A DNA stretch of 64,000 nucleotides, taken from Streptomyces venezuelae. Lineage in GTDB: Bacteria > Actinomycetota > Actinomycetes > Streptomycetales > Streptomycetaceae. The notes beneath the pieces were generated by a model. The model was not told where the DNA came from, did not search any database, and worked only from the letters and a program-made list of their open reading frames with translations. Location of the stretch: contig NZ_CP029193.1 of NCBI RefSeq assembly GCF_008642355.1, forward strand, positions 1,140,001 through 1,204,000, given 5' to 3'. Shown here one piece after another: positions 16,206 through 37,762 of the stretch (the stretch's first letter is position 1; every line of letters begins with the position of its first letter). A program made the position numbers and the translations under genes.

Positions 16206-16646
16206 CTACCCCCCGGCGGGCAGATCCGTGCGCGGCGCCGTACCCAGATGCACGCCGACCCGCTTGACCAGCAGCGTCATTTCGTACGCGACCAGACCCA
16301 CGTCGGAATCCGCGTCAGCGAGGACGGCTAGGCAGCTGCCGTCGCCGGCGGCCGTGACGAAGAGGAAGGCGTCGTCGAGCTCGACCACGGTCTGACGGAC
16401 CCGGCCCGCCTCGAAGTGCCGGCCCACGCCCTTGGCGAGGCTGTGGAACCCGGAGGCGACGGCGGCGAGGTGCTCGCTGTCCTCCCTGGTCAGGTTCTTC
16501 GACACGCCGGTCGGCAGGCCGTCTCCGGAGAGCACGAGTGCCTTGCGGATGCTGGCGACGCGCTGCACCAGGTCGTCGAGGAGCCAGTTCAGCTCACCCC
16601 GTCCCCCGGTCGTGGTGGTGCGTGCGTCGGCATTCGGTGCGGTCAT
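16206..16646 (-). CDS. Conservon roadblock/LC7 protein (CvnB-like)
   Basis: A 146-aa roadblock/LC7-fold protein, the presumed GTPase-activating or scaffold partner of the CvnD GTPase. The family pattern ELNWLLDDLVQRVASI, then KALVLSGDGLPTG, ASGFHSLAKG and AYEMTLLVKRVGVHLGT-type C-terminus, is clear. The ATG at 16646 overlaps the stop of cvnA (ATGA), so translation is coupled. The frame continues far upstream, but those codons are antisense-like and are excluded. The length is typical (130-150 aa). Confidence 0.92.
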   Translation of the reverse strand: MTAPNADARTTTTGGRGELNWLLDDLVQRVASIRKALVLSGDGLPTGVSKNLTREDSEHLAAVASGFHSLAKGVGRHFEAGRVRQTVVELDDAFLFVTAAGDGSCLAVLADADSDVGLVAYEMTLLVKRVGVHLGTAPRTDLPAGG

Positions 16647-19642: not shown

Positions 19643-20077
19643 GGCCTCCCCCAGATCGGCCCCCTGCGGCCGTTGCACGGGCCAGGGGCACACATGTGCG
19701 TCAACAAACGGCGCGAGCCTACTACTGACTCACGGGCAACTCGAAGGCGCATCCGAACGCTTTTCGGCCGTGACGCGAAAAGGACGTCCGCAGTTGTCCC
19801 TCCATTACGGGAGATTGCGTCCCAGCATGTGGCACCTCTTCCGGTGCCTCATCCGCCGCTGTACGCACGCCAGTTGGCCGGAATTCTTCGCTGCACGGAA
19901 GCGGAACGGGAATCTTTCGGATCTCTCGTTCGTCTTTGAGGAAGAGAGCCGCGGGCCGTGTTCAGGTCACCGGCACACCCCCGGGCACGTGACGGGGTGG
20001 GCGACATGAAGCGCGGCGAAACGGGCAGTCCGGAGGGTGACCCGTGAACGGCCGCGAGCATCGGGGGGAGAGACGCA
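19643..20077. other. Intergenic region between conservon and membrane-protein gene
   Basis: No gene is supported in these 435 bp. The region should hold the cvnA promoter (minus strand) and that of the downstream plus-strand gene. A short perfect inverted repeat, GGCACC-TCTTCC-GGTGCC, lies at 19831-19848. No clear -35/-10 pair was assigned. Confidence 0.5.
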
Positions 20078-20828: not shown

Positions 20829-22034
20829 TCAGACTCCTGCGAGTTCCGCCGCCCGGTCGGCGGCCAGGCCCCTGCGCGCCTTCATGAAAGGACGGGCGCA
20901 GTCGATCGCGAGGGCCGCCGTGGTCCGTCCCGCGCGTTCGTAGACGGCGAGGAGCCCTCCTCCCCGTGCGCCCGCCGTCGGGTCGCCGCCCGGATCGGCC
21001 GACGAGCCCTCGACGATGCGCGCGATGTCACCGCTGGTCCTGTGGCCGGCGAACTGGATGCGGGAGCCGTACTGGTCCGACCAGAAGTAGGGCAGGGAGT
21101 GCGCCGACTCGACCGTGTGCCCGGCGAGCAAGTTGCGTACCGCCGCGCGCGGTTGCTCCGTGGCACTCGTCCAGTGCTCGGCGCGGGCTCCGCCCACCCT
21201 GGCGACATCGCCCACCGCGACGACCTGGGGCAGCGTCGTCACGCAGCCGTCGTCGCACAGAATGCCGTCGTCCACCGCGAGAGGAGAACCCGCGAGCCAC
21301 TGCGTGTTGGGGATCGCCCCGATGCCGACCACGACCACGTCGGCGGGCAGCAGACGTCCGTCGGCCAGTTCGACGGCGGTGACGGAGCGGCCGGCGGCGC
21401 CCCGAAGTCCCGCCACGCCGACGCCGGTCAGCAGGGCGACGCCGCCGCGCGCATGCAGTCCCGCACACACCGAGGCCATTTGGGGGCCGAGTTGGGCCGC
21501 GAGAGGCAGCGGCGCCGCCTCGACCACGGTGACGTCATGCCCGAGGACCGCACACGAGGACGCGGTCTCCGCGCCGATGAAGCCGCCGCCGATCACCACG
21601 ACGCGCTGCGGCCCGCGCGTCAGATCCGCGCGCAGCGCGCGGGCGTCGTCCAGCGTGCGCACGGTGTGGACGCCCGCGAGTGGCGGCCCGGGGAGGCGTC
21701 GGGCCGCCGCGCCGGTGGCGATGACGACGCCGTCGCCCGTCACGGTGCGGCCGTCGTCGAGAACGACCGTACGGCCGCGCGCGTCGAGGGCTCTGACCCG
21801 CGTGCCGAGCAGCCACTCGGCGGCGAGTTCGGCTGTTTCCTCCTCGTCGGCGAGGGCGAGTCGGTCCTCGTCCGCCGTGCCGGTGAGGAAGCTCTTGGAC
21901 AAGGGCGGCCGGTCGTACGGCGGGTGCGGTTCGGCGCCGATGACGACCAGGCGACCGTCGAACCCCTGGGCGCGCAGTTCCCTGGCCGCGTACAGACCGG
22001 CCAGTGAGGCGCCCACGACGATGACGGCCCTCAT
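20829..22034 (-). CDS. NAD(P)H:ferredoxin reductase (FAD, pyridine-nucleotide-disulfide oxidoreductase fold)
   Basis: A 401-aa flavoprotein that should pass electrons from NAD(P)H to the Rieske ferredoxin encoded immediately upstream. Its ATG overlaps that gene's stop (ATGA). The N-terminal FAD Rossmann motif is IVVGASLAGLYAARELR, the NAD(P) Rossmann motif is VVVIGGGFIGAETASSCAVLG, and the second FAD contact is VVAVGDVARV. The C-terminal reductase domain (LPYFWSDQYGSRIQFAGH) is typical of oxygenase-coupled reductases. Given the Rieske oxygenase at 28533-29654, the most economical role is electron supply to glycine-betaine demethylation. An unrelated P450 partner cannot be excluded. Confidence 0.9.
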   Translation of the reverse strand: MRAVIVVGASLAGLYAARELRAQGFDGRLVVIGAEPHPPYDRPPLSKSFLTGTADEDRLALADEEETAELAAEWLLGTRVRALDARGRTVVLDDGRTVTGDGVVIATGAAARRLPGPPLAGVHTVRTLDDARALRADLTRGPQRVVVIGGGFIGAETASSCAVLGHDVTVVEAAPLPLAAQLGPQMASVCAGLHARGGVALLTGVGVAGLRGAAGRSVTAVELADGRLLPADVVVVGIGAIPNTQWLAGSPLAVDDGILCDDGCVTTLPQVVAVGDVARVGGARAEHWTSATEQPRAAVRNLLAGHTVESAHSLPYFWSDQYGSRIQFAGHRTSGDIARIVEGSSADPGGDPTAGARGGGLLAVYERAGRTTAALAIDCARPFMKARRGLAADRAAELAGV

Positions 22035-22390
22035 GCCGCGGATCCCTTCCCGGCGGCGGACGCGTCACCGTCACCCGTGGCTCCCGTGGCGGAGGCGACG
22101 AGCACATGAATGACGCCGTCCTCCACGTACACCTGGTGGGTCCGCACGGGGCGGCGCGCGGGCAGGCACGTCGGCCTGCCGGTGCGAAGATCGAAGGACG
22201 CGGCGTGCAGGGGGCACTCGATCAGACAGCCCTCCAGCCATCCTTCCGACAGGGAAGCATCCTGGTGGCTGCATGTGTCGTCGATGGCGTAGAGCTCGCC
22301 GTCGGCGTTGAACACCGCGACGGGCGGTGTGGTGTCGAGACGGACGGAGTCGCCTGCGGGGAGGTCTTCAAGGCGGCATACGGGGATCAT
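22031..22390 (-). CDS. Rieske [2Fe-2S] ferredoxin
   Basis: A 119-aa soluble Rieske ferredoxin. The cluster ligands are visible in CSHQDASLSEG (C-x-H) and CPLHAASFD (C-x2-H), separated by the usual 15-17 residues. The C-terminal tail beyond residue ~100 is Ala/Gly-rich and probably disordered. The start is ATG at 22390 (MIPVCRLEDLP), directly after a G-rich Shine-Dalgarno-like GAGGGGGGCCC; the upstream open frame is excluded. It overlaps the reductase gene by four bases. The pair is divergent from the IclR regulator, with a near-perfect inverted repeat between them. Confidence 0.92.
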   Translation of the reverse strand: MIPVCRLEDLPAGDSVRLDTTPPVAVFNADGELYAIDDTCSHQDASLSEGWLEGCLIECPLHAASFDLRTGRPTCLPARRPVRTHQVYVEDGVIHVLVASATGATGDGDASAAGKGSAA

Positions 22391-22462
22391 GGGCCCCCCT
22401 CTGGGTGTGATTCGGCCCGGCTCCTGGCCTCTGGAGGGCCAAGACCCTTCGGTAACATGATG

Positions 22463-22496
22463 TTTCGCATGGCGCACGAGGGAGCGCTATGCGCAA
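22463..22496. promoter_or_regulatory. Inverted repeat, candidate IclR operator
   Basis: TTTCGCATGGCGC (22463-22475) and GCGCTATGCGCAA (22484-22496) are inverted copies matching at 11 of 13 positions with an 8-bp spacer. The site lies between the divergent Rieske-ferredoxin and iclR-type genes. Its core GCGCAAC recurs twice ahead of the mycothiol-dependent dehydrogenase (about 23628 and 23672), so the same regulator may act on both operons. Confidence 0.5.
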
Positions 22497-22580
22497 CAGA
22501 ATCCGGGTGGGGCGCCCATCGCGTCAAGGGCTTCCCGAAGACGCGGCTTCAACAGGCCGCCAGGTGGTGAGAGTTCAGAT

Positions 22581-23411
22581 ATGACGGGCGATCGGAAACA
22601 GGCTGATCAGGACAGGGCACCCCGCGGTGAGCCGCGGGAGAAACAGCCGAAGGGGGCGGCCGGATCCGTCCAGTCCGTGGACCGCGCGGTGAGCGTTCTC
22701 GAGATCCTCGCGCGGCACGGCGAGGCCGGGGTCACCGAGATCGCCGATGAGCTGGGTGTCCACAAGTCGACGGCGTTCCGGTTGCTCGGAGTGCTGGAGA
22801 ACCGCGGCCTCGTCGGCCAGGCCAAGGACCGCGGGAAGTACTTCCTGGGCGCGGGCATACTCCGCCTCGCGGGGGCGGCGGCAGTGCGCATGGACATCTC
22901 CCAGGAGGGCGGCCCGGTCTGCCGCGAACTCGCGGACGAGCTGGGCGAGACGGTCAACATCGCGGTCCTGGACGACGACGCGGCGGTCAACATCATGCAG
23001 GCCCGCGGTCCCGCCTCGGTGACGGCGCAGAACTGGCTGGGCCGACGCACCCCGCTGCACGCCACTTCCAGCGGAAAGGTGCTCCTCGCCCATCTGCCGA
23101 CCACCCTGCGCGAAGGCCTGATGGCCCGCACCCTGCCGCGTCTGACCGAGCACACGGTGACCGGCACGGCGGCGCTGCGCGGGGAGCTGGAGGCCGTGGT
23201 CGAGCAGGGGTTCGCCGTGGCCGTCGAGGAGTTGGAGGTGGGCCTCGCCGCCGTCGCCGCGCCGGTGCGCGCGCACGACGGCAAGGTGATCGGCGCGCTC
23301 AGCGCCTCCGGTCCCGTCTACCGGCTGACCGAGGACCGGCTCACCGAACTCGGCAAGCGCACCGTCGCCGCCGCCGTCGAGCTGTCCCGTCGGATGGGGT
23401 ACGGCTTCTGA
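22581..23411 (+). CDS. IclR-family transcriptional regulator
   Basis: A 276-aa regulator. After a ~25-residue charged leader come the winged helix-turn-helix (SVDRAVSVLEILARHGEAG, then VTEIADELGVHKSTAFRLL, residues ~34-73) and the IclR effector domain, with NIAVLDDDAAVNIMQ, PLHATSSGKVLLAHL and the C-terminal VGLAAVAAPVRAHDGKVIGALSASGP. It stands divergent from the Rieske ferredoxin/reductase pair and upstream of the mscR-dmg-sox-oxygenase operon. The likely effector is betaine or a demethylation intermediate (inference from context). A 9-bp-stem hairpin follows at 23418-23458. Confidence 0.92.
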   Translation: MTGDRKQADQDRAPRGEPREKQPKGAAGSVQSVDRAVSVLEILARHGEAGVTEIADELGVHKSTAFRLLGVLENRGLVGQAKDRGKYFLGAGILRLAGAAAVRMDISQEGGPVCRELADELGETVNIAVLDDDAAVNIMQARGPASVTAQNWLGRRTPLHATSSGKVLLAHLPTTLREGLMARTLPRLTEHTVTGTAALRGELEAVVEQGFAVAVEELEVGLAAVAAPVRAHDGKVIGALSASGPVYRLTEDRLTELGKRTVAAAVELSRRMGYGF

Positions 23412-23417
23412 CACTTC

Positions 23418-23458
23418 CCGCGCCCCTACCCGGCTTGTGGCACGGGCGGGGGGCGCGG
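23418..23458. terminator. Hairpin after iclR-type gene
   Basis: The arms CCGCGCCCC (23418-23426) and GGGGCGCGG (23450-23458) are perfect with a 23-nt loop, starting 7 nt after the stop codon. This probably separates the regulator transcript from the catabolic operon that follows. Confidence 0.45.
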
Positions 23459-23695
23459 CGGTTCGCGGGCGCGGCGTCGCAGCGTACGGACTCATGAGGG
23501 TGGAACCGGGAGTTCCCGGCTCCGCCCTCACACGTGTGTGCGCGCCCCCACGCACTCCCAGGTGCGGCGAACGGCTTGGCTCCACCCCCTTGACGGCCTC
23601 TTGATGGCGTTCTCAGTATGTCTCCCATAGCGCAACCGAACGTGCAGGACGCAACAACGCCGCCACGCCGTGCGCAACAGCAGAGGAGTCTGGCC

Positions 23696-27324
<3,629 letters not shown>

Positions 27325-27340
27325 CCGCCAGGAGGCACCG

Positions 27341-28495
27341 GTGTCCCCTACCTACGACGTGATCGTGATCGGCCTCGGCGGCATGGGCAGCGCCGCCGCG
27401 CACCATCTCTCCGCGCGCGGGTCCCGCGTCCTCGGCCTGGAGAAGTTCGGCCCGGTGCACGCCCGCGGCTCCAGCCACGGCGGTTCGCGCATCACCCGCC
27501 AGTCCTACTTCGAGGACCCCGCGTACGTACCGCTGCTGCTGCGCTCCTACGAGCTGTACGACCGCCTCGAACGCGACACGGGCCGCGACATCGCCACCCT
27601 GTGCGGCGGCGTGATGCTCGGCCGCCCCGAAAGCCGCACGGTCTCCGGATCACGGCTCTCCGCCGAACGGTGGGACCTGCCCCACGAGATGCTCGACGCC
27701 AAGGAGATCCGTCGCCGCTTCCCGACGCTCACCCCGCGCGACGACGAGGTGGCCCTGTACGAGGCACGGGCGGGCCTCGTACGCCCCGAGAACACGGTCG
27801 CCGCACACCTCCAGCTGGCCACACGCAACAGCGCCGACCTGCACTTCGAGGAGCCCATGACCCGGTGGGAGCCCTGCCGGGACGGGGTGCGCGTCCACAC
27901 CGCGGAGGACACCTACACGGCGGGACAGCTGGTGATCTGCCCGGGTGCGTGGGCGCCGGAGCTGCTGACCGACCTGGGTGTGCCGTTCACCATCGAACGG
28001 CAGGTCATGTACTGGTTCCAGCCCTCCGGCGGGGTCGGCCCCTTCCTCCCCGAGAACCATCCGATCTACATCTGGGAGGACGCGGAGAGCGTCCAGGTCT
28101 ACGGCTTCCCCGCCATCGACGGACCCGCGCTGGGGGCGAAAGTGGCCTTCTTCCGCAAGGGCACGCCCTGCACCCCGGAGACCATCGAACGGTCGGTCCA
28201 CGACGAAGAGATCGTCGCCATGGCCGAACAGGTGGGGCGGCTCATCCCGAACCTCCCCGGCGGCTTCGTCAAGGCCGCCACCTGCATGTACTCGAACACT
28301 CCCGACGAGCACTTCGTGATCGCCCGCCATCCCCGGCACCCGGGGTCGGTGACCGTCGCCGCCGGCTTCTCCGGACACGGATTCAAGTTCGTGCCGGTGG
28401 TCGGCGAGATCCTCGCCGACCTGGCCCTCGACGGCGCCACCGCGCACCCCATCGAGCTCTTCGACCCGCGCCGCCTCGCCACCACACCTGCCTGA
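27341..28495 (+). CDS. Monomeric sarcosine oxidase / N-methyl amino acid oxidase
   Basis: A 384-aa FAD enzyme that oxidises sarcosine to glycine, formaldehyde and H2O2. The N-terminal Rossmann motif is [17 protein letters not shown]. The basic loop [23 protein letters not shown] is the monomeric sarcosine-oxidase signature. The cysteine for covalent flavin attachment lies in [15 protein letters not shown], and [15 protein letters not shown] completes the C-terminal FAD contact. Length matches the family (~385 aa). The GTG start has GGAGG upstream. N-methyltryptophan oxidase is the main alternative name, but placement after dimethylglycine oxidase and before a betaine-type oxygenase favours sarcosine. 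Confidence 0.92.
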
Positions 28496-28532
28496 GAACC
28501 GCCGAGAAGCCCCGTTGAGGAGTACGAGAACC

Positions 28533-29654
28533 GTGACGACGACCCCGTTGCCGCCGAGCCTCACCGCGACCCTCCCCGGCCGCTGCTACACCGACCCGGA
28601 GATCTTCCGGCAGGAGCAGGACCGCGTCTTCGAAGCGCTCTGGTTCTGCGCCGTGCGCTCCGCCGACCTCGACCGTCCCGGCGCCTTCCGCACCGTGCAG
28701 GTGGGGCGCGAGAGCGTCCTGGTCACGCGCTCCCGCACCGGCGAGCTGCGCGCCTTCCTGAACGTCTGCCGCCACCGCGGCGCCCGTCTGTGCACCGAGG
28801 AGTCGGGGCAGGTGCGGCGCGCCCTCCAATGCCCGTACCACGCCTGGACGTACGACCTGGAGGGACGGCTCGTCGCCGCGCCCAACCTGGCGAGGATGCC
28901 GGACGTGGACCGTGCCGCCTATGGGCTGATCAAGGTGGCCCTGCGGGAGTGGCTCGGCTACGCGTGGGTGTGCCTGGCCGACGAACCACCCTCCTTCGAA
29001 GAGACCGTCATGGGCGCGGCGGTCGAACGGCTCGGCGACGCGGCGGCCATCGACCGCTACGGCACCGAGCGTCTCGCGCTCGGCAAACGCATCTCCTACG
29101 ATGTGCGCGCCAACTGGAAGCTGATCGTCGAGAACTTCATGGAGTGCTACCACTGCGCGACGATCCACCCCGAACTGACCGACGTCCTGCCGGAGTTCGC
29201 GGACGGGTTCGCGGCGCAGTACTACGTGGGGCACGGCGCCGCCTTCGGAGAGGAGGTCGGCGGGTTCACCGTCGACGGCAGCGCGGGCTTCGACCGGCTC
29301 CCCGAGGTGTCGCAGGACCAGGACCGCCGCTACTACGCGATCACCGTGAAGCCGACCGTGTTCATCAACCTCGTCCCCGACCACGTGATCCTGCACCGCA
29401 TGTTCCCGCTGGCCGAGGACCGCACGGTCGTCGAGTGCGACTGGCTGTACGCACCCGACGTCGTCGCCTCCGGTGCGGACCTCACGCACTCCGTGGAGCT
29501 CTTCCACCGCGTCAACACGCAGGACTTCGCGGCCTGCGAACGCACCCAGCCCGCGATGGCGTCACGCGCCTACCGCGAGGGCGGGGTACTGGTGCCGACG
29601 GAACACCACATCGGGCTCTTCCACGACTGGCTGACGAAACAGCTCGCTACGTAG
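28533..29654 (+). CDS. gbcA: Rieske non-heme iron oxygenase, probable glycine-betaine demethylase
   Basis: A 373-aa terminal oxygenase alpha subunit. Rieske ligands are C79-x-H81 (FLNVCRHRGARLC) and C100-x2-H103 (CPYHAWTYDLEG). The mononuclear iron site is ENFMECYHCATIHPEL, with His207 and His212. This form belongs to the GbcA/choline-monooxygenase-like group that demethylates glycine betaine to dimethylglycine with release of formaldehyde. The genes just upstream carry out the next two demethylations and formaldehyde removal. Electrons would come from the ferredoxin/reductase pair at 20.8-22.4 kb. GTG at 28533 (10 nt after GAGGAG) is preferred to TTG at 28515. The 3' end overlaps the convergent SMC-like gene by 8 bp. 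Confidence 0.85.
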   Translation: MTTTPLPPSLTATLPGRCYTDPEIFRQEQDRVFEALWFCAVRSADLDRPGAFRTVQVGRESVLVTRSRTGELRAFLNVCRHRGARLCTEESGQVRRALQCPYHAWTYDLEGRLVAAPNLARMPDVDRAAYGLIKVALREWLGYAWVCLADEPPSFEETVMGAAVERLGDAAAIDRYGTERLALGKRISYDVRANWKLIVENFMECYHCATIHPELTDVLPEFADGFAAQYYVGHGAAFGEEVGGFTVDGSAGFDRLPEVSQDQDRRYYAITVKPTVFINLVPDHVILHRMFPLAEDRTVVECDWLYAPDVVASGADLTHSVELFHRVNTQDFAACERTQPAMASRAYREGGVLVPTEHHIGLFHDWLTKQLAT

Positions 29655-32600
29655 TGGACGCCTGGACCGGGACGGGCTGTTCCTGGCCTGCGGGCCGCTT
29701 GTACATGCGTGTCGCGGTGATCTCCCCGTGCACCGTCTCGCCCTCCGGGTCCTGCTGCGGCAGGCCCGGCCGCAGGTGCTCCTCGACGCTGATGTACTTC
29801 AGGCCCGCGCGAAGGTCCGCGTCGTTCCGCAACCGGATGACCAGCGGGAACTCGGCGAGCGCGGTCGTGTCGAACAGGCCGGTCGTGTAGAGCAGCTGCA
29901 CGCCGAGCGCGTCGGATACGGCCCGCTGGAGCTCCAGGAGGTACGTCGCGTTGGCGCGGCCGATGGGGTTGTCCAGGAAGAGCGTGCCGGCGTGCCGGTG
30001 CTTGTCGCGGCCCCGGTCGTTGCTGCGCAGCGCGGCCATCGTGCAGTACAGGGCGATGGCCGCGGTGAGCAGCTGTCCGCCGGAGAACACGTCGCCCATC
30101 TGCCCGACGGGAACGCGCTCGGCACGCAGCACGGCGTCCGGCTTGAGGATCTCGACCGCGACACCGCGTGGTTCGAGGGCCGCCTGCACACCGCGCAGCA
30201 GCAGGGACATGCCGTCGCGCCGCATGTCCGAGTTCTTCTTCACCGCGGCGCGGGTCGCCTCGTCGATGACCTCGCCGAGCCGCTCCACGAGCGTGGCCTG
30301 ATCGGGTTCTTCGAAGCGGACCCGCAGGAACTCCTGCCCCGACCACTCGCCCAGGCCCTCGGGCAGGCGGGAGAGGCGCTGCGCGGACCTGAGGGTGGCG
30401 AGCGCGGACTCGACGAGGCCGCGCAGCCGGTCGACGATGCTGTCGCGGTTGCGCTCCAGCTGTTCGAGCTCGTCGGTGAGGACGCGGAGCCTGGGTGCGA
30501 ACGCGTCGGCCCACTTCTTGGCGTGCTCGGGCAGTGCGGACGCGGGCAGTTCGCGGATCTGCTGGCGGGCGGGGGTGCGCACCTGCTCGTACCGCGTCGC
30601 GTTCGCGTGCCGTACGAGGATGTCGCCGGCCTCCCGGACGGCGGACTCGGCCGTCGACAGGTCGGCGGCGCAGCCGCGCAGGGACCGGCGGGTCTCCGCG
30701 GCGGCCTGCCGGGCCTCCTCCAGGGTGCCCGGGTAGGCCTCGGGGGTCTCTTCGGTGTCGTCCTCGTGGTGTTCGCGCAGGAGGTCGCGGAGCAGGGCCG
30801 CGGTCTCGTCGAAGCCGCCGGCGGCGTCCTCGGTGACGCGGTGGGTGTGCAGCAGGGCGGCGTGCGCTTCCTTGGCGCGGCTCAGCGCCTCGGTGTGCGC
30901 GGCCAGTTCGCCGGTGGCGGTGCGCAGGAGCGCCTGGGCCTGTTCGGCGTCGGCGGGGACGAGCTCTTCGGGAAGCTCGGTGTGGGCGTCGCCGTCCTCG
31001 GGTGCGTGCCGTTCGGCCTCGCCGCGCAGGCGGCCGAGCTGTTCGCTCGCCGTGGAGGCGCGGGCCTCGATCAGCTGGACCTGGGCTTCCGCGCGGGCTG
31101 CGGCGGCCTGCCGGGAGGGGCCGTCGGAGCCGTCGGGGCCTTCGAGGAGCAGGGCGGCGCGGGTGCGGACCTTGTTGCTGAGCCGGTCGAGCTCGGCGAG
31201 CGCGGCGCTCTCGTCGCTCTCGGCGCGGGCCTGTTCGGCGCGGAGGTCGGCGCCGACGCCCACCTTCTCGTAGAGCTGGGAAGCCGCGCGGTAGGCCTCG
31301 CGCAGGGCGGGCAGCGAGGACTTGGGGGCTTCGCTGTCCTCCGGTACGTCCTCGGGGGCGCCGGCGATCTCGGCGCGCTCGGCGCGCAGCGCGCGGGCGG
31401 TGCGGCGCGCGTCGTCGGCGGCGCGCTGGGCGGCGCGGCGGTCCTCGTCGGCGGCGCGGGCCCGGTCGAGACAGGTCTGGGCGCGGGCCTCCGACTCCAC
31501 GGCGTCGTCGGCCAGTTCGCGGAGCTTGGCCTGCCAGCCGGCCCGTTCGCGGAGCCGGAAGGCGAGGCCCGCGAGGGCGTCGGCGACGCGCCTGGCGCGC
31601 TGGGCGGCCTCCTGGCGTTCGTCACGCACGCGTGCCGCCTCGCTCGCGGCCTCGTCGGCCTCGGCTCGTGCGGTGCGGGCCTCGGCGAGCTCGGCCTCGG
31701 CCTCCGTGGCGAATGCGCGCGCCTCCTCCGCGGCGGTGGCGAGTTCGGCGAGGCGGCCCCTCGGGCAGCCGGTGCGCCAGGAGGCGAGGCGGGCGGCGAG
31801 TTCGCGGTCCTTGGCGAGGCGGACGGCGAGCGCGCGGATCTCCTCGTCCCGTCGCGCGGCGCGTGCGCGCAGCGCCTGCCGCTCCTCGTCGGCGGCGTGC
31901 TCGTCGTGCATGGCCGGGTTCGGCGGTACGAGGAAGACGCCGCTGTCCGTGGACTGCTCGCCCGGCGTGGGCGCGAGGAGGGCGGCCGCGGTGCCGACGG
32001 CGACGGCGGAGCGCGGCAGGAGGGCGGCGTCGGCGAGGGCGTCGCGGGCGCGGGCGTGCGTGTCGGGGTCGGTGATGACGACGCCGTCGACGAGTTCGGG
32101 GCGGGCGGCGAGCACGCGCGCGTGGTCGGCGGGGTCGACGGCCTGGGCGAGGTAGCGCCAGCCGGGCAGGGCGGGGATGCCGTGCTCGCCGAGGAACTCG
32201 ACGGTGGCCAGGACGTCGGGGCCCGGCGGGAGGAGGCCGCCGTCGCCGAGGGCGCCGAGGATGCGGGAGTCGTCGGCGGCCGCGGTGCGCAGGTCGAAGA
32301 GCTGGCGTTCGGCGGAGGCGACGCTTTCGTCGAGCAGCTCACGCAGGTCGTCCGCGGAGCGGTCGAGCTCCTCCACGGAGAGGGCGCGTGCGGACAGGGC
32401 CTCTTCGGAGTGGGCACTTTCGGTGTGGTCGCCTCCCTGGCGGGGCAGCGGCACCCCGCCGCCCCCACCCGGCAGACTCAGGAGCTCGGCGAGCCGCTGG
32501 TTGCCCGCGATGGACTCGGCGGCGCGGCGCTCCGCGTCGTGGGCGGCTTCGGCGGCGGTCGCGGCGTCGGAGGCGCGGGCGGCGGTCAGCTCGGCGCGGG

Positions 32601-34311
32601 CCTCGGCCGCGGCCGTCTCCTTGGCGTGGTCGGCGGCGCGTCCCGCGGCCTCGCGGGCGGCGTCCCACGCGGCGACGGTGGTCTTCTCGGCGTCGCTCGC
32701 GGCGAGTGCGGCGCGGGCCGGGTCGGCGTCGGGGGCGGTGTCGTCGAGCCAGCCCGCGCGGACGGCTTCGGCGGTCTCCTGCTCGACCTCGGCGAGGCGC
32801 TGCTTGAGGTGGCCCGCCTCGCTGCGGGCGCGCTGCGCCTCGGTGGCGGCGGCCGTGGCGTCCCGGTGGGCGGTCTCGCCGGTCTCCTGGAGCGCGGCGG
32901 AACGCTCCTCCTCTTCGTTGGCGAGGTTCTCCGCGCCTTCGGCGGCGGTGTGCAGGGCGCGGACGAGGTCGGCGGCGGCCTTCGCGCGGGCCGCGAGCGC
33001 GGGTGCCGCGTCGCGCTCGGCCTCGCGGATGGCGACGGCCACGCGCGCGGAGCGGTCGGCGGCGGCGCGGTGCCTCAGGACGGCTTCCGCGGCCTGCCAG
33101 GCGGCGTGCAGGGTGCGGGCGTCGGCGAGTTCGCGGCGCTGGGCGGCGGCGGCCTTCTCGGCGACGGTGAGCGCCAGCGAGGCGTGCCGGTAGGCCAGTT
33201 CGGCGGAGATCAGGGCGCTCTTGCCGCGGGCCCGCTCGGCCTCGGTCACGGTGTGGGCGGCGGCGGTGACCTGCTCGGCCAGGTCGGCTGCGCGGCCACG
33301 CTCCTCGACGGCGCGCGCGGAGAGCCTGCGCGCCAGGGTCCGGGTGCGGCGCTCGGCGCCCGCGTGCACGTCACGCGCGCGTGCCCGGGTGTCGGCGGCG
33401 TCGACGATGCGGTTCAGGAGGTCCACGGAGCCCGCGGTGAAGTCGCGTTCGGCGATCAGCTCGGCACGGCGCCCGAGCTTGTTGCCGAAGCCGTGGACGA
33501 GGTCGGCGAGGCCGTCCGTGTCGCGCGTGTCGGTGACGGCGCGCAGCAGCAGGTCGGTGAAGTCGGAGTCCTTCTTGACGGCGAAGAGGCCCGCGGCCTC
33601 GCCCTCGTCGGCGTTCATCTCCCGCTGGTAGCGGAAGAGTTCGGGGTCGAGCCCGAGGTCGCCGAGGTGTTCGTTCCAGCGGTCGTGGATCTCTTCCCAG
33701 TGCACTTCGAGGTGCGGGTACGCCTTGACCGCCTCGGTCATGGCGTCGCGGAAGCCCTTCATGGTGCGCCGCCGCCCCTGGGCGCCGGACGCGCCCTCCG
33801 CCGAGGGACGGACGGCGGTGGACTCGGCGACGGGCAGCGAGTCCAGGCTCAGGCCGGGGCCGGGCCGGAAGGAGTACCAGGCCTCGGCGAACTTCCGCGG
33901 GTCGTTGGAGACCTGCCGGCCGCGCCACTCGCTGACCTTGCCGACGACCACGCACTCGCCCGTCAGGGTGTGCTGCCATTCCAGGGCGACGTGTCCGCAG
34001 TCGTCCGCGAGGAGGAACTTGCGCAGCACGCCGGAGCTGGCGCCGCCGAGCGTGTTGCGGTGGCCGGGCAGCATCACCGAGAAGATCAGCTTGAGCAGGA
34101 CGGACTTGCCGCCGCCGTTCTCCAGGAAGAGCACGCCTGCGGGCGCGGGGCGGCGCGGCGGGCCGACCGGCTCGTCCTCGAAGAACTCCGCCTGGGTGGG
34201 CGCGGGGTCGGGCACCTCCGCGCCGACGCCGCGCAGGTCGAGCACGGTGTCGGCGTAGCGCGCACCGGCCGGCCCGATGGAGTAGAGGCGGATCCGGGAC
34301 AGCTCGTACAT
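29647..34311 (-). CDS. Large SMC/MukB-like ATPase (1554 aa)
   Basis: A 1554-aa SMC-type ATPase, last gene of a three-gene operon. The N-terminal ATPase half holds the Walker A ENGGGKS (residues 64-70) after a RecF/MukB-like start. Long Ala/Glu/Arg-rich coiled coils span roughly 330-640 and 780-1290. A compact globular insert near 660-790 (LGEHGIPALPGWRYLAQAVD) would be the hinge. The C-terminal half has the ABC signature FSGGQLLTAA (1409-1418) and Walker B LFLDNPIG (1444-1451). Asn1448 replaces the catalytic Glu normally found after the Walker B Asp. The ATG at 34311 is chosen; the frame is open upstream but antisense-like. It resembles JetC/MksB subunits in size, order and context, but I could not place it in a named subfamily. 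Confidence 0.85.
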   Translation of the reverse strand: MYELSRIRLYSIGPAGARYADTVLDLRGVGAEVPDPAPTQAEFFEDEPVGPPRRPAPAGVLFLENGGGKSVLLKLIFSVMLPGHRNTLGGASSGVLRKFLLADDCGHVALEWQHTLTGECVVVGKVSEWRGRQVSNDPRKFAEAWYSFRPGPGLSLDSLPVAESTAVRPSAEGASGAQGRRRTMKGFRDAMTEAVKAYPHLEVHWEEIHDRWNEHLGDLGLDPELFRYQREMNADEGEAAGLFAVKKDSDFTDLLLRAVTDTRDTDGLADLVHGFGNKLGRRAELIAERDFTAGSVDLLNRIVDAADTRARARDVHAGAERRTRTLARRLSARAVEERGRAADLAEQVTAAAHTVTEAERARGKSALISAELAYRHASLALTVAEKAAAAQRRELADARTLHAAWQAAEAVLRHRAAADRSARVAVAIREAERDAAPALAARAKAAADLVRALHTAAEGAENLANEEEERSAALQETGETAHRDATAAATEAQRARSEAGHLKQRLAEVEQETAEAVRAGWLDDTAPDADPARAALAASDAEKTTVAAWDAAREAAGRAADHAKETAAAEARAELTAARASDAATAAEAAHDAERRAAESIAGNQRLAELLSLPGGGGGVPLPRQGGDHTESAHSEEALSARALSVEELDRSADDLRELLDESVASAERQLFDLRTAAADDSRILGALGDGGLLPPGPDVLATVEFLGEHGIPALPGWRYLAQAVDPADHARVLAARPELVDGVVITDPDTHARARDALADAALLPRSAVAVGTAAALLAPTPGEQSTDSGVFLVPPNPAMHDEHAADEERQALRARAARRDEEIRALAVRLAKDRELAARLASWRTGCPRGRLAELATAAEEARAFATEAEAELAEARTARAEADEAASEAARVRDERQEAAQRARRVADALAGLAFRLRERAGWQAKLRELADDAVESEARAQTCLDRARAADEDRRAAQRAADDARRTARALRAERAEIAGAPEDVPEDSEAPKSSLPALREAYRAASQLYEKVGVGADLRAEQARAESDESAALAELDRLSNKVRTRAALLLEGPDGSDGPSRQAAAARAEAQVQLIEARASTASEQLGRLRGEAERHAPEDGDAHTELPEELVPADAEQAQALLRTATGELAAHTEALSRAKEAHAALLHTHRVTEDAAGGFDETAALLRDLLREHHEDDTEETPEAYPGTLEEARQAAAETRRSLRGCAADLSTAESAVREAGDILVRHANATRYEQVRTPARQQIRELPASALPEHAKKWADAFAPRLRVLTDELEQLERNRDSIVDRLRGLVESALATLRSAQRLSRLPEGLGEWSGQEFLRVRFEEPDQATLVERLGEVIDEATRAAVKKNSDMRRDGMSLLLRGVQAALEPRGVAVEILKPDAVLRAERVPVGQMGDVFSGGQLLTAAIALYCTMAALRSNDRGRDKHRHAGTLFLDNPIGRANATYLLELQRAVSDALGVQLLYTTGLFDTTALAEFPLVIRLRNDADLRAGLKYISVEEHLRPGLPQQDPEGETVHGEITATRMYKRPAGQEQPVPVQASTT

Positions 34312-34385
34312 GGCGGCGGACTCTCGTCGTAAGTCTTGGGGGGGGCGGCAAGCAAGATGGGGGCCGGAGCCCGGGAGGGGTGGTG

Positions 34386-35279
34386 TCAGGAGTGGAACGG
34401 CAGCCCCGCGTCGGCGGCCAGCTCCAGGTCGTCGGTCTCTTCGGGGGGCAGCAGCGTCGCCGAGCCGTCCGTGACCGGGACGACGCCGAGTTCGAGGAGC
34501 TCCGCCATGGCCGCGGTGCCCGCCATGTCGCGGACCTGAAGCTGGTAGCGGGCCGTGGTGCGGTACGTCCCTCCGGAGTCGTCGCCGGTGCGCTGCAGGA
34601 ACCCGGAGTCGGTGAGGAAGGCGGCTGCCTTGCCGACGATGCCCGTGGTGGATCCCGCGAGGCGGCGGGCGTCCTTGGTGGCGCCGGTCGAGCTGCGGCG
34701 GGCCCAGATCCGCCAGGCGGCTTCGAGGCCGGGCGCGTCGGTCGCGGGGTCGGTGTTCTCGCCGTGTTCCTCGGCGCGCTCCTCCAGGCGGTGGCAGGCC
34801 TGGCGTACGAAGGCGTCCACTCCGTTGACGGTGACGCGGCCGATGTAGCCGTCGTCGGCGAGGTCCTCGGGGCGCGGGAACGCCATGGCGGCGATGGCGA
34901 GGTGGGCGAGGCCGTGCAGGAAGCGGTCGGTGGAGTCGGTGGCCGCGCGGCGGGCGTAGTCGCCCATGCGGACGGCGAAGACGGAGTCCTCCGCGGCGGT
35001 CACGGCCATGCCCGCGCGCGGGGACACCTCCAGGACGACGAGCCCGAGGCCGGTGGCGACGGCGTCGGCGAGCCGGGCGAAGGGCGGGTCCTCGCGGTAG
35101 CGGCGGAGCAGTTCCGCGTACTCCTGGTCGCGGGCGGGCTGGAGCTTGGGCTGCAGTCCGAAGGCGACGAGCCGTGCGGCGTCGGCGGCGTCGGCCGGGG
35201 TGACGGGCGCGGGGGCGGCGGGCGCTGCCGTGGGGTCCGGCTCTCCCCACGCGGCGTGCTCTGCGGGGTGGTCGGTCAC
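34386..35279 (-). CDS. SMC-complex accessory subunit candidate (297 aa, KITE-like position)
   Basis: A 297-aa soluble protein with no signal or membrane segment. It begins with a Pro/Ala-rich ~30-residue linker and continues with predicted alpha-helical and winged-helix-like segments: DQEYAELLRRYREDPPFARLADAVATGLGLVV cut here to its helical core, VTVNGVDAFVRQACHRLEE, and GIVGKAAAFLTDSGFLQR. Middle position between a ~500-aa and a >1500-aa SMC gene matches the JetB/MksE (KITE) subunits of Wadjet/MksBEF operons; this is inferred from operon layout, not a recognised domain. The GTG start at 35279 has AAGGAG at 8-nt spacing and overlaps the stop of the 33-codon ORF upstream. A 74-nt gap separates it from the SMC gene. 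Confidence 0.75.
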   Translation of the reverse strand: MTDHPAEHAAWGEPDPTAAPAAPAPVTPADAADAARLVAFGLQPKLQPARDQEYAELLRRYREDPPFARLADAVATGLGLVVLEVSPRAGMAVTAAEDSVFAVRMGDYARRAATDSTDRFLHGLAHLAIAAMAFPRPEDLADDGYIGRVTVNGVDAFVRQACHRLEERAEEHGENTDPATDAPGLEAAWRIWARRSSTGATKDARRLAGSTTGIVGKAAAFLTDSGFLQRTGDDSGGTYRTTARYQLQVRDMAGTAAMAELLELGVVPVTDGSATLLPPEETDDLELAADAGLPFHS

Positions 35280-35377
35280 GGCGTGTGCTCCTTGGGGGCT
35301 GGGGCGAGGGCGAGGTGGAGACGGGGGTCGGTCATGGCCACGCCGAATCCATACGGGTGTGGGCCGGTCATGATCAT
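35276..35377 (-). CDS. Candidate 33-codon ORF bridging the two SMC accessory genes
   Basis: This small frame starts at ATG 35377, overlapping the stop of the upstream 508-aa gene (ATGA), and ends with a TGA that overlaps the GTG start of the 297-aa gene. A very strong Shine-Dalgarno, AAGGAGG (35382-35388), lies 4 nt before the first ATG and 10 nt before a second in-frame ATG at 35371. The peptide would begin MIMTGPHPYGFGVAMTDPR and ends in KEHTP. Exact coupling on both sides makes translation likely; whether the peptide itself works or only relays ribosomes is open. No similarity is recognised. Confidence 0.5.
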   Translation of the reverse strand: MIMTGPHPYGFGVAMTDPRLHLALAPAPKEHTP

Positions 35378-36900
35378 GCCGCCTCCTTACGGTCGGCCGC
35401 CATGCCGACGGCGTCCAGGAGCGCCGTGCCGACGATGAGGTCCGCGCCGCCGAACTCCTCGTCGTCGAGTTCGGTGCCGTCGTCCACGGCGAAGAGCAGC
35501 TGCTCCTCCCCCTGGCGGTAGGCGGTGCCGACGGGCGGGCTGGCCGCGTGCACGGCCAGCAGGGCGACCAGGTAGGGCAGTTCGGGGTCGCGGCGCCGGG
35601 CGTCGGCAAGGAGGCCGGAGAGCCTGCGCGGCGCGTCGGCGGGCAGGTCGAGCAGCTCCATGGCGCTCGCGAGCTGCTCCTCGCTGAAGCGGCTGTCGTC
35701 CGGGGTGGCGATCAGGTCGGGCTCGGGCATCTCCGCGCCGAGGTGCTCGCGCTCCACGGGCGGCGTGAGCAGTATGTCGACGAGGTCGCCGACGCGGACG
35801 GAGACCGGCGTGCGCAGCCCGGTGCCGCGCGCGAAGTAGGCATCCGTCACGCGGATCGCCTGCTCGGCGGGGAGCGGCAGGAGGGGGGCCACCAGCTGGC
35901 CGTACAGGTCGAGGCCCGTGCGTGCGGTGGGGGTGGCGAAGGCCTGCCGGTCCTGCTCGGCGCGGAAGAGCGGGCCGGCCTCCAGGAGGCGGGACTGCAG
36001 CTGGGTGTGGCGGCGGATGCAGTCCTTGACGATGTCGACCAGTTCGGCGGCGCGGCGCTTCTGCTCCGGGTCCTCGGACTCGTCGCGGGCCTTGCGGATG
36101 TTGGTCAGGATGGCGTTCTCGTGGCGGTACCGGTCCGCGACGTGGTCGAGCGCTTCGGCGATCATGTCGGGGACGGCCTTGAGCCAGTCCACCGCGCGGA
36201 CGTTGCGCCGGGTCGCGTCGAGGGCCTTGCGCAGGGTTTCCGAGTACTGGACGGTGCGGTAGCGCGCCTGCTCCGCCGCCAGCTGGGCGTCGGCGAGCCT
36301 GCCGCGGCTGATCAGCACCTCCAGCTTCACCTCGGCGGCGATCTGCGCGCTGGTGACGTCGGTGTCGAGGGCGCCCACCAGGACGTTGACCGCTTCGTCG
36401 GTCGTCCGCAGGTAGACACTGCCGCCGTGGCCGGGGACCTCTTCGAGGAGCTTGAAGTCGTAGTCCCTGCGGACATACGTCCCGTCCGGGGCGAACGTGC
36501 CGTACACGGCGCGGAAGCCGCGGTCGACGCTGCCGACGTTGATCAGGTTCTCCAGGACCCAGCGGGCCACGCGCTCGTGCTCGGCGGCCGGGCGCGCGGG
36601 CGCCTGGGCGGCGACGCGCGGGAGGAGCCGGACGACGATCTGCTCGTGGTCGGCGCCGGTGTCGAAGTCCATGTTCAGGGTGACGAGGTCGATGGCGGAC
36701 AGGGCCACCTCCGCCATCGCGTACACCGAGTACTCACCCGCGAGGTTGGCCTTGCGCACGTCGAGGTCGTGCAGCGGAGCCGTGCAGGCGAGGGCGCGCA
36801 GACGGCGCGCCAGGCCCTCGTCGGCGGCCGGGCCCAGAGCGGGCCTCGGCCCCGCGCTGAGCTGGGGCGGAGCGGTGTCCGTAACGGCAGGCGAAGTCAC
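35374..36900 (-). CDS. SMC-complex accessory subunit candidate (508 aa, kleisin-like position)
   Basis: A 508-aa soluble, mainly helical protein and first gene of the SMC-like operon. The N-terminal part (LHDLDVRKANLAGEYSVYAMAEVALSAIDL cut to its core at residues ~43-72, then MDFDTGADHEQIVVRLLPRV) resembles a winged-helix module. A long helical or coiled-coil middle follows (AQLAAEQARYRTVQYSETLRKAL, HENAILTNIRKARDESEDPEQKRRAAE). The C-terminal region has LPYLVALLAVHAA. The sequence does not look like DUF2397 or DUF3375, the known Wadjet JetA families, so kleisin-like is inferred only from operon position and length. GTG at 36900 lies 8 nt after a -10-like TAGTCT, suggesting a leaderless mRNA. 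Confidence 0.75.
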   Translation of the reverse strand: MTSPAVTDTAPPQLSAGPRPALGPAADEGLARRLRALACTAPLHDLDVRKANLAGEYSVYAMAEVALSAIDLVTLNMDFDTGADHEQIVVRLLPRVAAQAPARPAAEHERVARWVLENLINVGSVDRGFRAVYGTFAPDGTYVRRDYDFKLLEEVPGHGGSVYLRTTDEAVNVLVGALDTDVTSAQIAAEVKLEVLISRGRLADAQLAAEQARYRTVQYSETLRKALDATRRNVRAVDWLKAVPDMIAEALDHVADRYRHENAILTNIRKARDESEDPEQKRRAAELVDIVKDCIRRHTQLQSRLLEAGPLFRAEQDRQAFATPTARTGLDLYGQLVAPLLPLPAEQAIRVTDAYFARGTGLRTPVSVRVGDLVDILLTPPVEREHLGAEMPEPDLIATPDDSRFSEEQLASAMELLDLPADAPRRLSGLLADARRRDPELPYLVALLAVHAASPPVGTAYRQGEEQLLFAVDDGTELDDEEFGGADLIVGTALLDAVGMAADRKEAA

Positions 36901-36938
36901 GGTGCACAGACTAGATCCTCGGTCTGACAACGGTCGAA
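36901..36938 (-). promoter_or_regulatory. Candidate promoter for the SMC-like operon, leaderless start
   Basis: On the minus strand a -10-like TAGTCT occupies 36913-36908, 8 nt before the GTG at 36900. A weak -35-like TTCGAC lies about 19 bp further upstream (36938-36933). No Shine-Dalgarno precedes the GTG. Together these fit a leaderless transcript, which is common in Streptomyces. Confidence 0.4.
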
Positions 36939-37005: not shown

Positions 37006-37719
37006 TCAGGCGCCCCGCTCGCCCGCCGCCCCGCGCGTCCCGTACGCGTCGACAACCCGTCGACGCGAGTCGTCGAGGTACTCGACGAGCAGCGCCTCCG
37101 CGTCGTCGCGCCGGCCCTTCTGGAGCGCCTCCAGGATCTGTCCGTTGCGGGCGATGTAGGGCTCGTGGAGCCGCCGGGGGTCGTCCACCACGTGGAAGGC
37201 GAGGCGCAGTTCGGCGAAGACGCTGCGCATCAGCTCGTCCGTGCGCTCGCTTCCGGCGAGGGCGACGAGTTCCCGGTGGAAGTCGATGTTGGCGGTGGAC
37301 ACACCTTTCCAGTCGCCCGCCCGCGCGGCCCGCCGCCCGTCGGAGACGGCGTCGGCCAGTCCGTCCACGGCGTACGGCGGTGCGCCGAGTCCGCGTACGA
37401 CCGCGCATTCGACGAGGGCACGGGTGCGGTAGATGTCCTCCACATCCTCATCGGTCAGCATCCGTACGAAGACGCCGCGGTTGAGCTGATGCTCCAGGAG
37501 CCGCTCGTGCGTGAGCAGCCGGAACGCCTCCCGCAGCGTGTTGCGGGAGACGCCGAGCGCGCCACCGATGCTGTCCTCGGAGAGCCGTGTGCCGGGCGGG
37601 AAGAATCCCGCCGCGATGCGGCTCCGCAGGATGTCCGAGACCCGCTCCGCCGTACTCGTGCGCCCCAGGAGTGCGCGGTCGTCGGCCAGTCCGTTCACGT
37701 CACCCGTCCCCTCCGCCAT
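37006..37719 (-). CDS. GntR-family regulator, FCD (FadR-like) subfamily
   Basis: A 237-aa regulator. The winged helix-turn-helix (TAERVSDILRSRIAAGFFPPGTRLSEDSIG cut here; family core GVSRNTLREAFRLLTHERLL) occupies residues ~22-85. The all-helical FCD ligand domain follows, with metal-binding-type residues in TANIDFHRELVALAGS and AFHVVDDPRRLHEPY. ATG at 37719 is preferred; a TTG at 37743 is the alternative. It is divergent from the MFS-DUF1445-pxpABC operon, and a perfect palindrome in the shared promoter region is the probable operator. The likely effector is 5-oxoproline or a related acid. Confidence 0.9.
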   Translation of the reverse strand: MAEGTGDVNGLADDRALLGRTSTAERVSDILRSRIAAGFFPPGTRLSEDSIGGALGVSRNTLREAFRLLTHERLLEHQLNRGVFVRMLTDEDVEDIYRTRALVECAVVRGLGAPPYAVDGLADAVSDGRRAARAGDWKGVSTANIDFHRELVALAGSERTDELMRSVFAELRLAFHVVDDPRRLHEPYIARNGQILEALQKGRRDDAEALLVEYLDDSRRRVVDAYGTRGAAGERGA

Positions 37720-37762
37720 GCCCGGATTCAATCGCAGATGCAAGAACGAGACAACAGGGGTA

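Follow-up and report, generated by a model that had tools for sequence, protein, structure and literature searches.

A Wadjet type III operon without JetD, probably kept as a second chromosomal SMC complex in Streptomycetaceae

What becomes of a plasmid sensor when the nuclease that it activates is gone? In Wadjet, according to the portion of PMC10586767 available to us, JetABC senses small circles and activates JetD, and an operon in Streptomyces venezuelae that holds jetA, jetB and jetC genes raises this question, no jetD gene being recognisable beside them. The operon lies in a stretch of 64,000 nucleotides (the window; G000:C1:1140001-1204000) that belongs to a single-contig chromosome of 8.02 Mb. 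We propose, with a probability of roughly two in three, that the operon encodes a Wadjet complex of type III from which JetD was lost once, early in Streptomycetaceae, and which has been kept as a housekeeping loop extruder of the chromosome. Genomes, loci and proteins are cited by our own G, L and P handles where they need to be told apart.

Subunits of the operon and the search for JetD

The three genes lie on the minus strand in the order jetA (35374..36900, 508 aa), jetB (34386..35279, 297 aa) and jetC (29647..34311, 1554 aa), and an open reading frame (ORF) check matched exactly the sizes and tandem orientation given in an earlier annotation made from the sequence alone (the original prediction). 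That annotation had called them an operon like those of structural maintenance of chromosomes (SMC) proteins and MukB, with the gene sizes and orientation of Wadjet and MksBEF operons, which the profile matches and predicted folds bear out; it had also placed the first gene outside the known JetA families, which the JetA3 match contradicts. JetA matched the PADLOC profile of type III JetA3 (PDLC00567, 5e-186, residues 35-516 of a 518-aa ORF starting at 36930), and JetC, the SMC ATPase, matched that of JetC3 (PDLC00588, E=0, 1391 bits) as well as PADLOC PDLC00589 (1.1e-239, residues 1-1517). At E<=1, neither JetA nor JetC was assigned to a family by Pfam or NCBIfam, and JetB matched no JetB profile in Pfam, PADLOC or NCBIfam, with only two sub-threshold, unrelated matches in Pfam/NCBIfam. 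The Pfam and NCBIfam libraries contain curated models of Muk and Mks subunits, none of which was matched by JetA, JetB or JetC. JetB was 42% (L109), 36% and 32% identical to the JetB of three JetD3-bearing operons, and a KITE-like subunit lies between jetA and jetC, as in type III Wadjet. Two JetA3 relatives, P0175 (Amycolatopsis magusensis) and P0176 (Streptantibioticus silvisoli), are named "DUF3375 domain-containing" at source; despite these names, Pfam detects no such domain in the JetA of the window.

Structure prediction, among the checks originally suggested, gave a MukF-like (kleisin) fold for JetA and a MukE/JetB-like (KITE) fold for JetB in AlphaFold2 models with mean predicted local distance difference test (pLDDT) values of 74 and 68, respectively. 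In Foldseek, the top five rows for the JetA model were MukBEF/MukEF chains, of which two were at E<=0.001 and the best at 9.6e-5, and the top 13 rows for the JetB model were MukEF, MukBEF, MukE or JetABC chains, the last including 8dk1_E and 8as8_C, with a best row at E 3.1e-3 and probability 1.00; chains were read as MukF, MukE or JetB from entry titles and lengths. VIA-align was less discriminating than Foldseek for both models, and for JetA it scored CorA helices (Z 13.0) nearly equal to MukF (Z 13.9). A sequence search of the PDB returned no Muk protein at E<=1 for any subunit, its rows being three weak, unrelated ones for JetA, two for JetB and none for JetC.

The ATPase motifs of JetC follow the expected layout, with Walker A (NGGGKS, residues 65-70, 34102..34119, minus strand) near the N terminus, and the ABC signature (FSGGQ, residues 1409-1413, 30073..30087, minus) and Walker B (LFLDNP, residues 1444-1449, 29965..29982, minus) near the C terminus. 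Each was present in all 71 JetD-less JetC proteins compared, namely that of the window and 70 others from loci whose jetC frame is intact. Walker B usually contains DE in SMC ATPases, and the catalytic glutamate is expected where JetC has LDNP. An ATPase-dead complex, considered in view of this difference, was rejected: LDNP also occurs in all three JetD-bearing JetC proteins compared and is therefore a trait of the family rather than a sign of decay, though ATP hydrolysis by type III JetC may differ, given this Walker B sequence.

JetA relatives were found in at least 555 genome stretches, and the best 80 by JetA match were kept as the named loci; a protein search for JetB returned 1198 matches. 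The order and strand of jetA-jetB-jetC were kept in 78 of the 80, the other two (L052 and L062) showing jetA alone with a contig end shortly beyond; coverage of jetC reached 90% or more in 70, and in eight a contig end interrupts the gene. Seven JetD queries found no match at E<=1e-6 in any of the 80, 70 of which have a near-complete jetC and at least 2.5 kb beyond it. This neighbourhood comparison agrees with the earlier statement that no JetD/Toprim-type nuclease adjoins the operon. JetD was likewise missing from eight further Streptomyces loci and from 20 loci of 15 other Streptomycetaceae genera, giving 0 of 108 core loci, in 98 of which the region after jetC is visible. The genes thus encode an SMC protein, a kleisin and a KITE subunit with no nuclease gene, as in systems of the MksBEF/MukBEF type. 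In the genome of the window, JetD3 (PDLC00594) was not found in two profile searches, one of which lacked a positive control signal, nor was JetD_C (PF09983).

Nuclease-bearing relatives occur in the same genus. Among 199 Streptomyces genomes, JetD3 was matched in 28 and JetD_C in 24. Strong JetD3 matches (E<1e-40) occurred in 14, each beside a second, diverged JetABC copy (13 by their JetABC loci; G577 by jetC alone), and in the five of these genomes in which both copies were opened (G193, G402, G426, G484 and G541) the core copy was without JetD. JetD acting in trans on the core operon was considered and rejected, all 14 strong matches standing beside the second copy. In the other 14 genomes the JetD3 matches were weak (E 6.5e-10 to 8e-4); JetD_C was matched as well in 12 of them, and G552 and G556 showed short fragments only.

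Examination of the diverged relatives with genomic context revealed JetD3 after jetC in 20 of 22, the 20 including four plasmids; the profile confirmed it in 19 of the 20, L113 being assigned by BLAST only. The two without it were L111, where the contig ends inside jetC, and L112, where jetC is truncated and JetD was not found. The JetD counts leave out L164 (jetA only), L167 (no match at threshold) and the 4.4 kb loci L081-L108, L116, L126-L154 and L171-L198, which are too short for JetD. Among the diverged loci, a nearby JetD_C match was part of the reason for fetching L119, L120 and L121; the genomes of L117 and L159-L162 have no such match. Two loci outside the family look degenerate, L113 (G386), in which a single frame contains the beginning of jetA and the end of jetC, and L112 (G279), with its truncated jetC. 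In G480 and G538 (L160 and L161), diverged type III operons stand near both chromosome ends and score equally for JetA, as would copies in terminal repeats; the second JetD3 match of G480 is shorter.

Conservation, chromosomal place and history of the operon

The operon is nearly universal in its family. A JetA match was found in 193 of the 199 Streptomyces genomes surveyed and in all but two of the 194 that are of good quality (192), and three of the six misses, including both of good quality, were checked and all had a partial jetC match. Across Streptomycetaceae, 148 of 150 genomes and all 17 genera had a JetA match, which bears out the original description of the surroundings as core-like DNA. 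In a draw of 396 genomes across the phylum, JetA was matched in 17, of which 12 belong to the genus of the window; JetD-less copies outside Streptomycetaceae were sought only in this draw, where the five JetA genomes outside the genus were all opened. One Amycolatopsis JetA (P0175) is 64% identical to that of the window.

Separate genes for Smc (match at C1:5947111-5950659) and ScpA (C1:1652878-1653540) lie in the same genome apart from the jet operon, and JetABC is therefore a second SMC complex; as for membership of Smc-ScpAB itself, JetC had no NCBIfam match and thus none to SMC_prok_B. In nine genomes, identity to the proteins of the window was 76-92% for JetA, 73-90% for JetB and 63-86% for JetC, compared to 65-88% for Smc (four of whose rows cover only 84-88% of the protein) and 66-91% for ScpA in eight genomes, suggesting a divergence about equal to that of Smc-ScpA. 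The median JetA identity in the named loci, 91.7%, is biased upward because these were the best by JetA match, and the nine-genome comparison is fairer. A decaying Wadjet relic would account for the missing JetD and for a few broken copies (G407 and G558), yet near-universal retention, a divergence much like that of Smc-ScpA and the ATPase motifs kept in 71 of 71 loci with an intact jetC frame make such decay very improbable.

On 33 single-contig chromosomes, the median distance of the operon from an end was 16% of the chromosome length; the distance was between 5 and 25% in 29, and transcription ran outward in 31. Streptomyces have linear chromosomes and linear plasmids, as reported in the portion of PMC10482375 seen, and a place towards the ends could fit a complex that silences or segregates without cleavage, compacting or sequestering extrachromosomal circles, or handling linear replicons and telomeres instead of the whole chromosome. 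We rate this as improbable, no data pointing to extrachromosomal targets and many genes sharing such a place. A search of phage records with JetA gave no match, and of 72,556 plasmid records 4 contained relatives of JetA, none of which reached 60% identity and each of which had JetD3 after it; mobile carriage of the core operon was dismissed on these counts.

A maximum-likelihood tree of 50 JetA proteins placed the 17 known JetD-less rows in one clade with support of 100/100, one of them (L089) being a 4.4 kb locus assigned by sequence rather than by its downstream region; P0174 and P0176, whose JetD state was not read, fall inside the same clade. JetD state changes a single time on this tree, and the JetD-less clade sits among several JetD-bearing lineages, a topology from which we infer loss of JetD rather than gain elsewhere. 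Because the root is the midpoint and some branches are long, one loss is the simplest reading and no more.

Collectively, these results suggest a mechanism in which JetA as kleisin, JetB as KITE subunit and JetC as SMC ATPase would form a type III Wadjet complex that, having lost JetD once and early in Streptomycetaceae, was retained under purifying selection in a housekeeping role throughout the family. By homology, the complex would extrude loops, driven by ATP, and the conservation pattern fits action on the linear chromosome of the host alongside Smc-ScpAB; with no JetD, no DNA would be cut. The original prediction had left the choice between a housekeeping condensin-like complex and a defence complex with a separate effector; the first is better supported, and it speaks against the second that no JetD3 was found elsewhere in the genome and that no single gene accompanies the operon downstream.

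Several points weigh against this proposal. Conservation is silent on which DNA JetABC acts on, and an unlinked, unrelated nuclease missed by the searches could replace JetD. The absence of JetD was read only in the loci opened, which do not include that of G592, from a genus of the family with a weak JetA match (5.4e-46); the presence counts are of JetA matches, some weak or partial (such as those of G509 and G592). The JetC of G484 is far less conserved than its Smc (63 vs 79%). In G407 (L164), jetC matches at two distant sites and jetB was not found near jetA, and in G558 (L163) jetA is split across two frames; the operon is therefore not strictly essential, or these may be assembly errors. 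The JetA tree is midpoint-rooted with some long branches, as noted. Finally, the JetA and JetB models are of moderate confidence with low template modelling scores, no Foldseek row for JetB reached E<=0.001, and the 50 rows for the JetA model contain no JetABC kleisin.

The JetB tail and the flanks of the operon

The C terminus of JetB carries a motif, AGLPFH (34392..34409, minus strand), that sets the JetD-less proteins apart. Its LPFH was present in 103 of the 106 tails from JetD-less operons. No JetB tail from a JetD-bearing operon had it among the 19 inspected, although L156 ends in EGLFHV, a partial likeness; DLFS or ELFS is the ending in some relatives of the JetB of L109, a JetD-bearing locus. 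Across 98 distinct JetB sequences, the six columns of AGLPFH were 98-100% identical, and nine of ten columns in the linker shortly before it were at most 77% identical. This pattern suggests a candidate docking peptide, which may bind a separate partner, and the tail may mark a change of partner for JetB. A fuller version of our proposal, in which the complex was domesticated once in the ancestor of Streptomycetaceae, became a second extruder of the linear chromosome and took on AGLPFH a new partner in place of JetD, is tentative, and we hold it at slightly less than even odds.

Docking of this kind would also suit a complex that remained in defence. JetABC, whose machinery is homologous to the anti-plasmid sensor (JetA3/JetC3), might sense small DNA circles through total loop extrusion and recruit an unlinked, possibly unrelated nuclease or another host factor, and a near-invariant motif that closes a tail of greater variability is what a docking peptide for that factor would look like. 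Several results make such a sensor unlikely. Neither JetD3 nor JetD_C was found in the genome of the window, 171 of 199 Streptomyces genomes had no JetD3 match, and the operon has no fourth gene that recurs after it at every locus. A patchy distribution is typical of defence genes, unlike this near-universal operon.

The search for a replacement fourth gene relied on tblastx clustering of the 1.8 kb downstream of jetC, where the largest cluster held 56 of 90 segments, and such a gene was rejected, none being common to all loci; L019 and L041 had oxidoreductase-like and transporter-like genes there, in which no nuclease was recognised by eye (no profile was run). Upstream, the largest cluster held 78 of 97 segments, consistent with the gene for a GntR/FCD regulator at 37006..37743 on the minus strand (Pfam FCD and GntR). 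In 73 of the 80 named loci this gene precedes jetA in the same orientation, an arrangement seen at 0 of 20 loci from other genera, and we take the regulator for a neighbour rather than a component of the complex. A 33-aa mini-ORF between jetA and jetB, considered as a coupled small gene, was dropped because its peptides, inspected in 25 of 78 loci, were unconserved except for a short KE-type tail that fits a ribosome-binding site. A promoter and terminator scan found none.

The Rieske oxygenase and GntR neighbours of the original prediction were both confirmed. The oxygenase, read as of the betaine/sarcosine type and present in 10 of the 80 named loci, belongs to a metabolic gene set at 20829-29654, between jetC and a NIT-domain sensor kinase (16643-19693); in 38 of the 80, no more than about 2.5 kb separates jetC from the kinase gene after it.

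Relation to known SMC systems

The operon resembles Wadjet type III (JetABCD) in its JetA3 and JetC3 matches and in the jetA-jetB-jetC order on one strand, and differs from it in that no JetD3 was found in the operon or genome of the window, that it is core and conserved in place rather than patchy, and that its JetB has a longer N-terminal extension and a C-terminal motif of its own. MksBEF of Pseudomonas aeruginosa is likewise JetABC-like and JetD-less and contributes to chromosome organisation, as stated in the same part of PMC10586767. The present operon is set apart from it as JetA3/JetC3, without a direct alignment to MksB, MksE or MksF, and membership of the type III family would therefore make its loss of JetD independent of MksBEF. 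MukBEF shares the predicted MukF-like and MukE-like folds of JetA and JetB; unlike it, the proteins of the window have no Muk sequence match in the PDB at E<=1 and co-occur with Smc and ScpA. The MksBEFG (EptABCD) systems of Corynebacterium and Mycobacterium are also actinobacterial SMC complexes related to JetABCD, but they possess the nuclease MksG/JetD (PMC10586767, PMC10123090, both in the portions seen).

A survey of actinobacterial defence reports Wadjet on Streptomyces chromosomes (PMC10482375, in part), and its main text contains neither the word JetA nor the word JetD. Studies of the Streptomyces chromosome discuss SMC, ParB and HupS, and no mention of a second Streptomyces SMC complex was found in the portions of them available (PMC8410768, PMC13121528). 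Among the open-licence literature matches listed, represented by titles and the starts of abstracts, none describes a JetD-less Streptomyces JetABC, and an earlier description is possible. A JetABC-type complex without JetD is thus already known, and the lineage, the breadth and the JetB motif appear to be new within the literature covered.

A second SMC complex in nearly all Streptomycetaceae would change how mutants in chromosome folding and sporulation are read. In S. coelicolor, deletion of smc gives 7% in what we take to be the column for anucleate cells (a table seen from PMC4255302), and JetABC might be one reason why this deletion is tolerated. The family would also offer a natural experiment in the conversion of a plasmid sensor with its own nuclease into a machine for housekeeping, the armed and unarmed versions sharing a genus and, in 14 of 199 Streptomyces, a genome.

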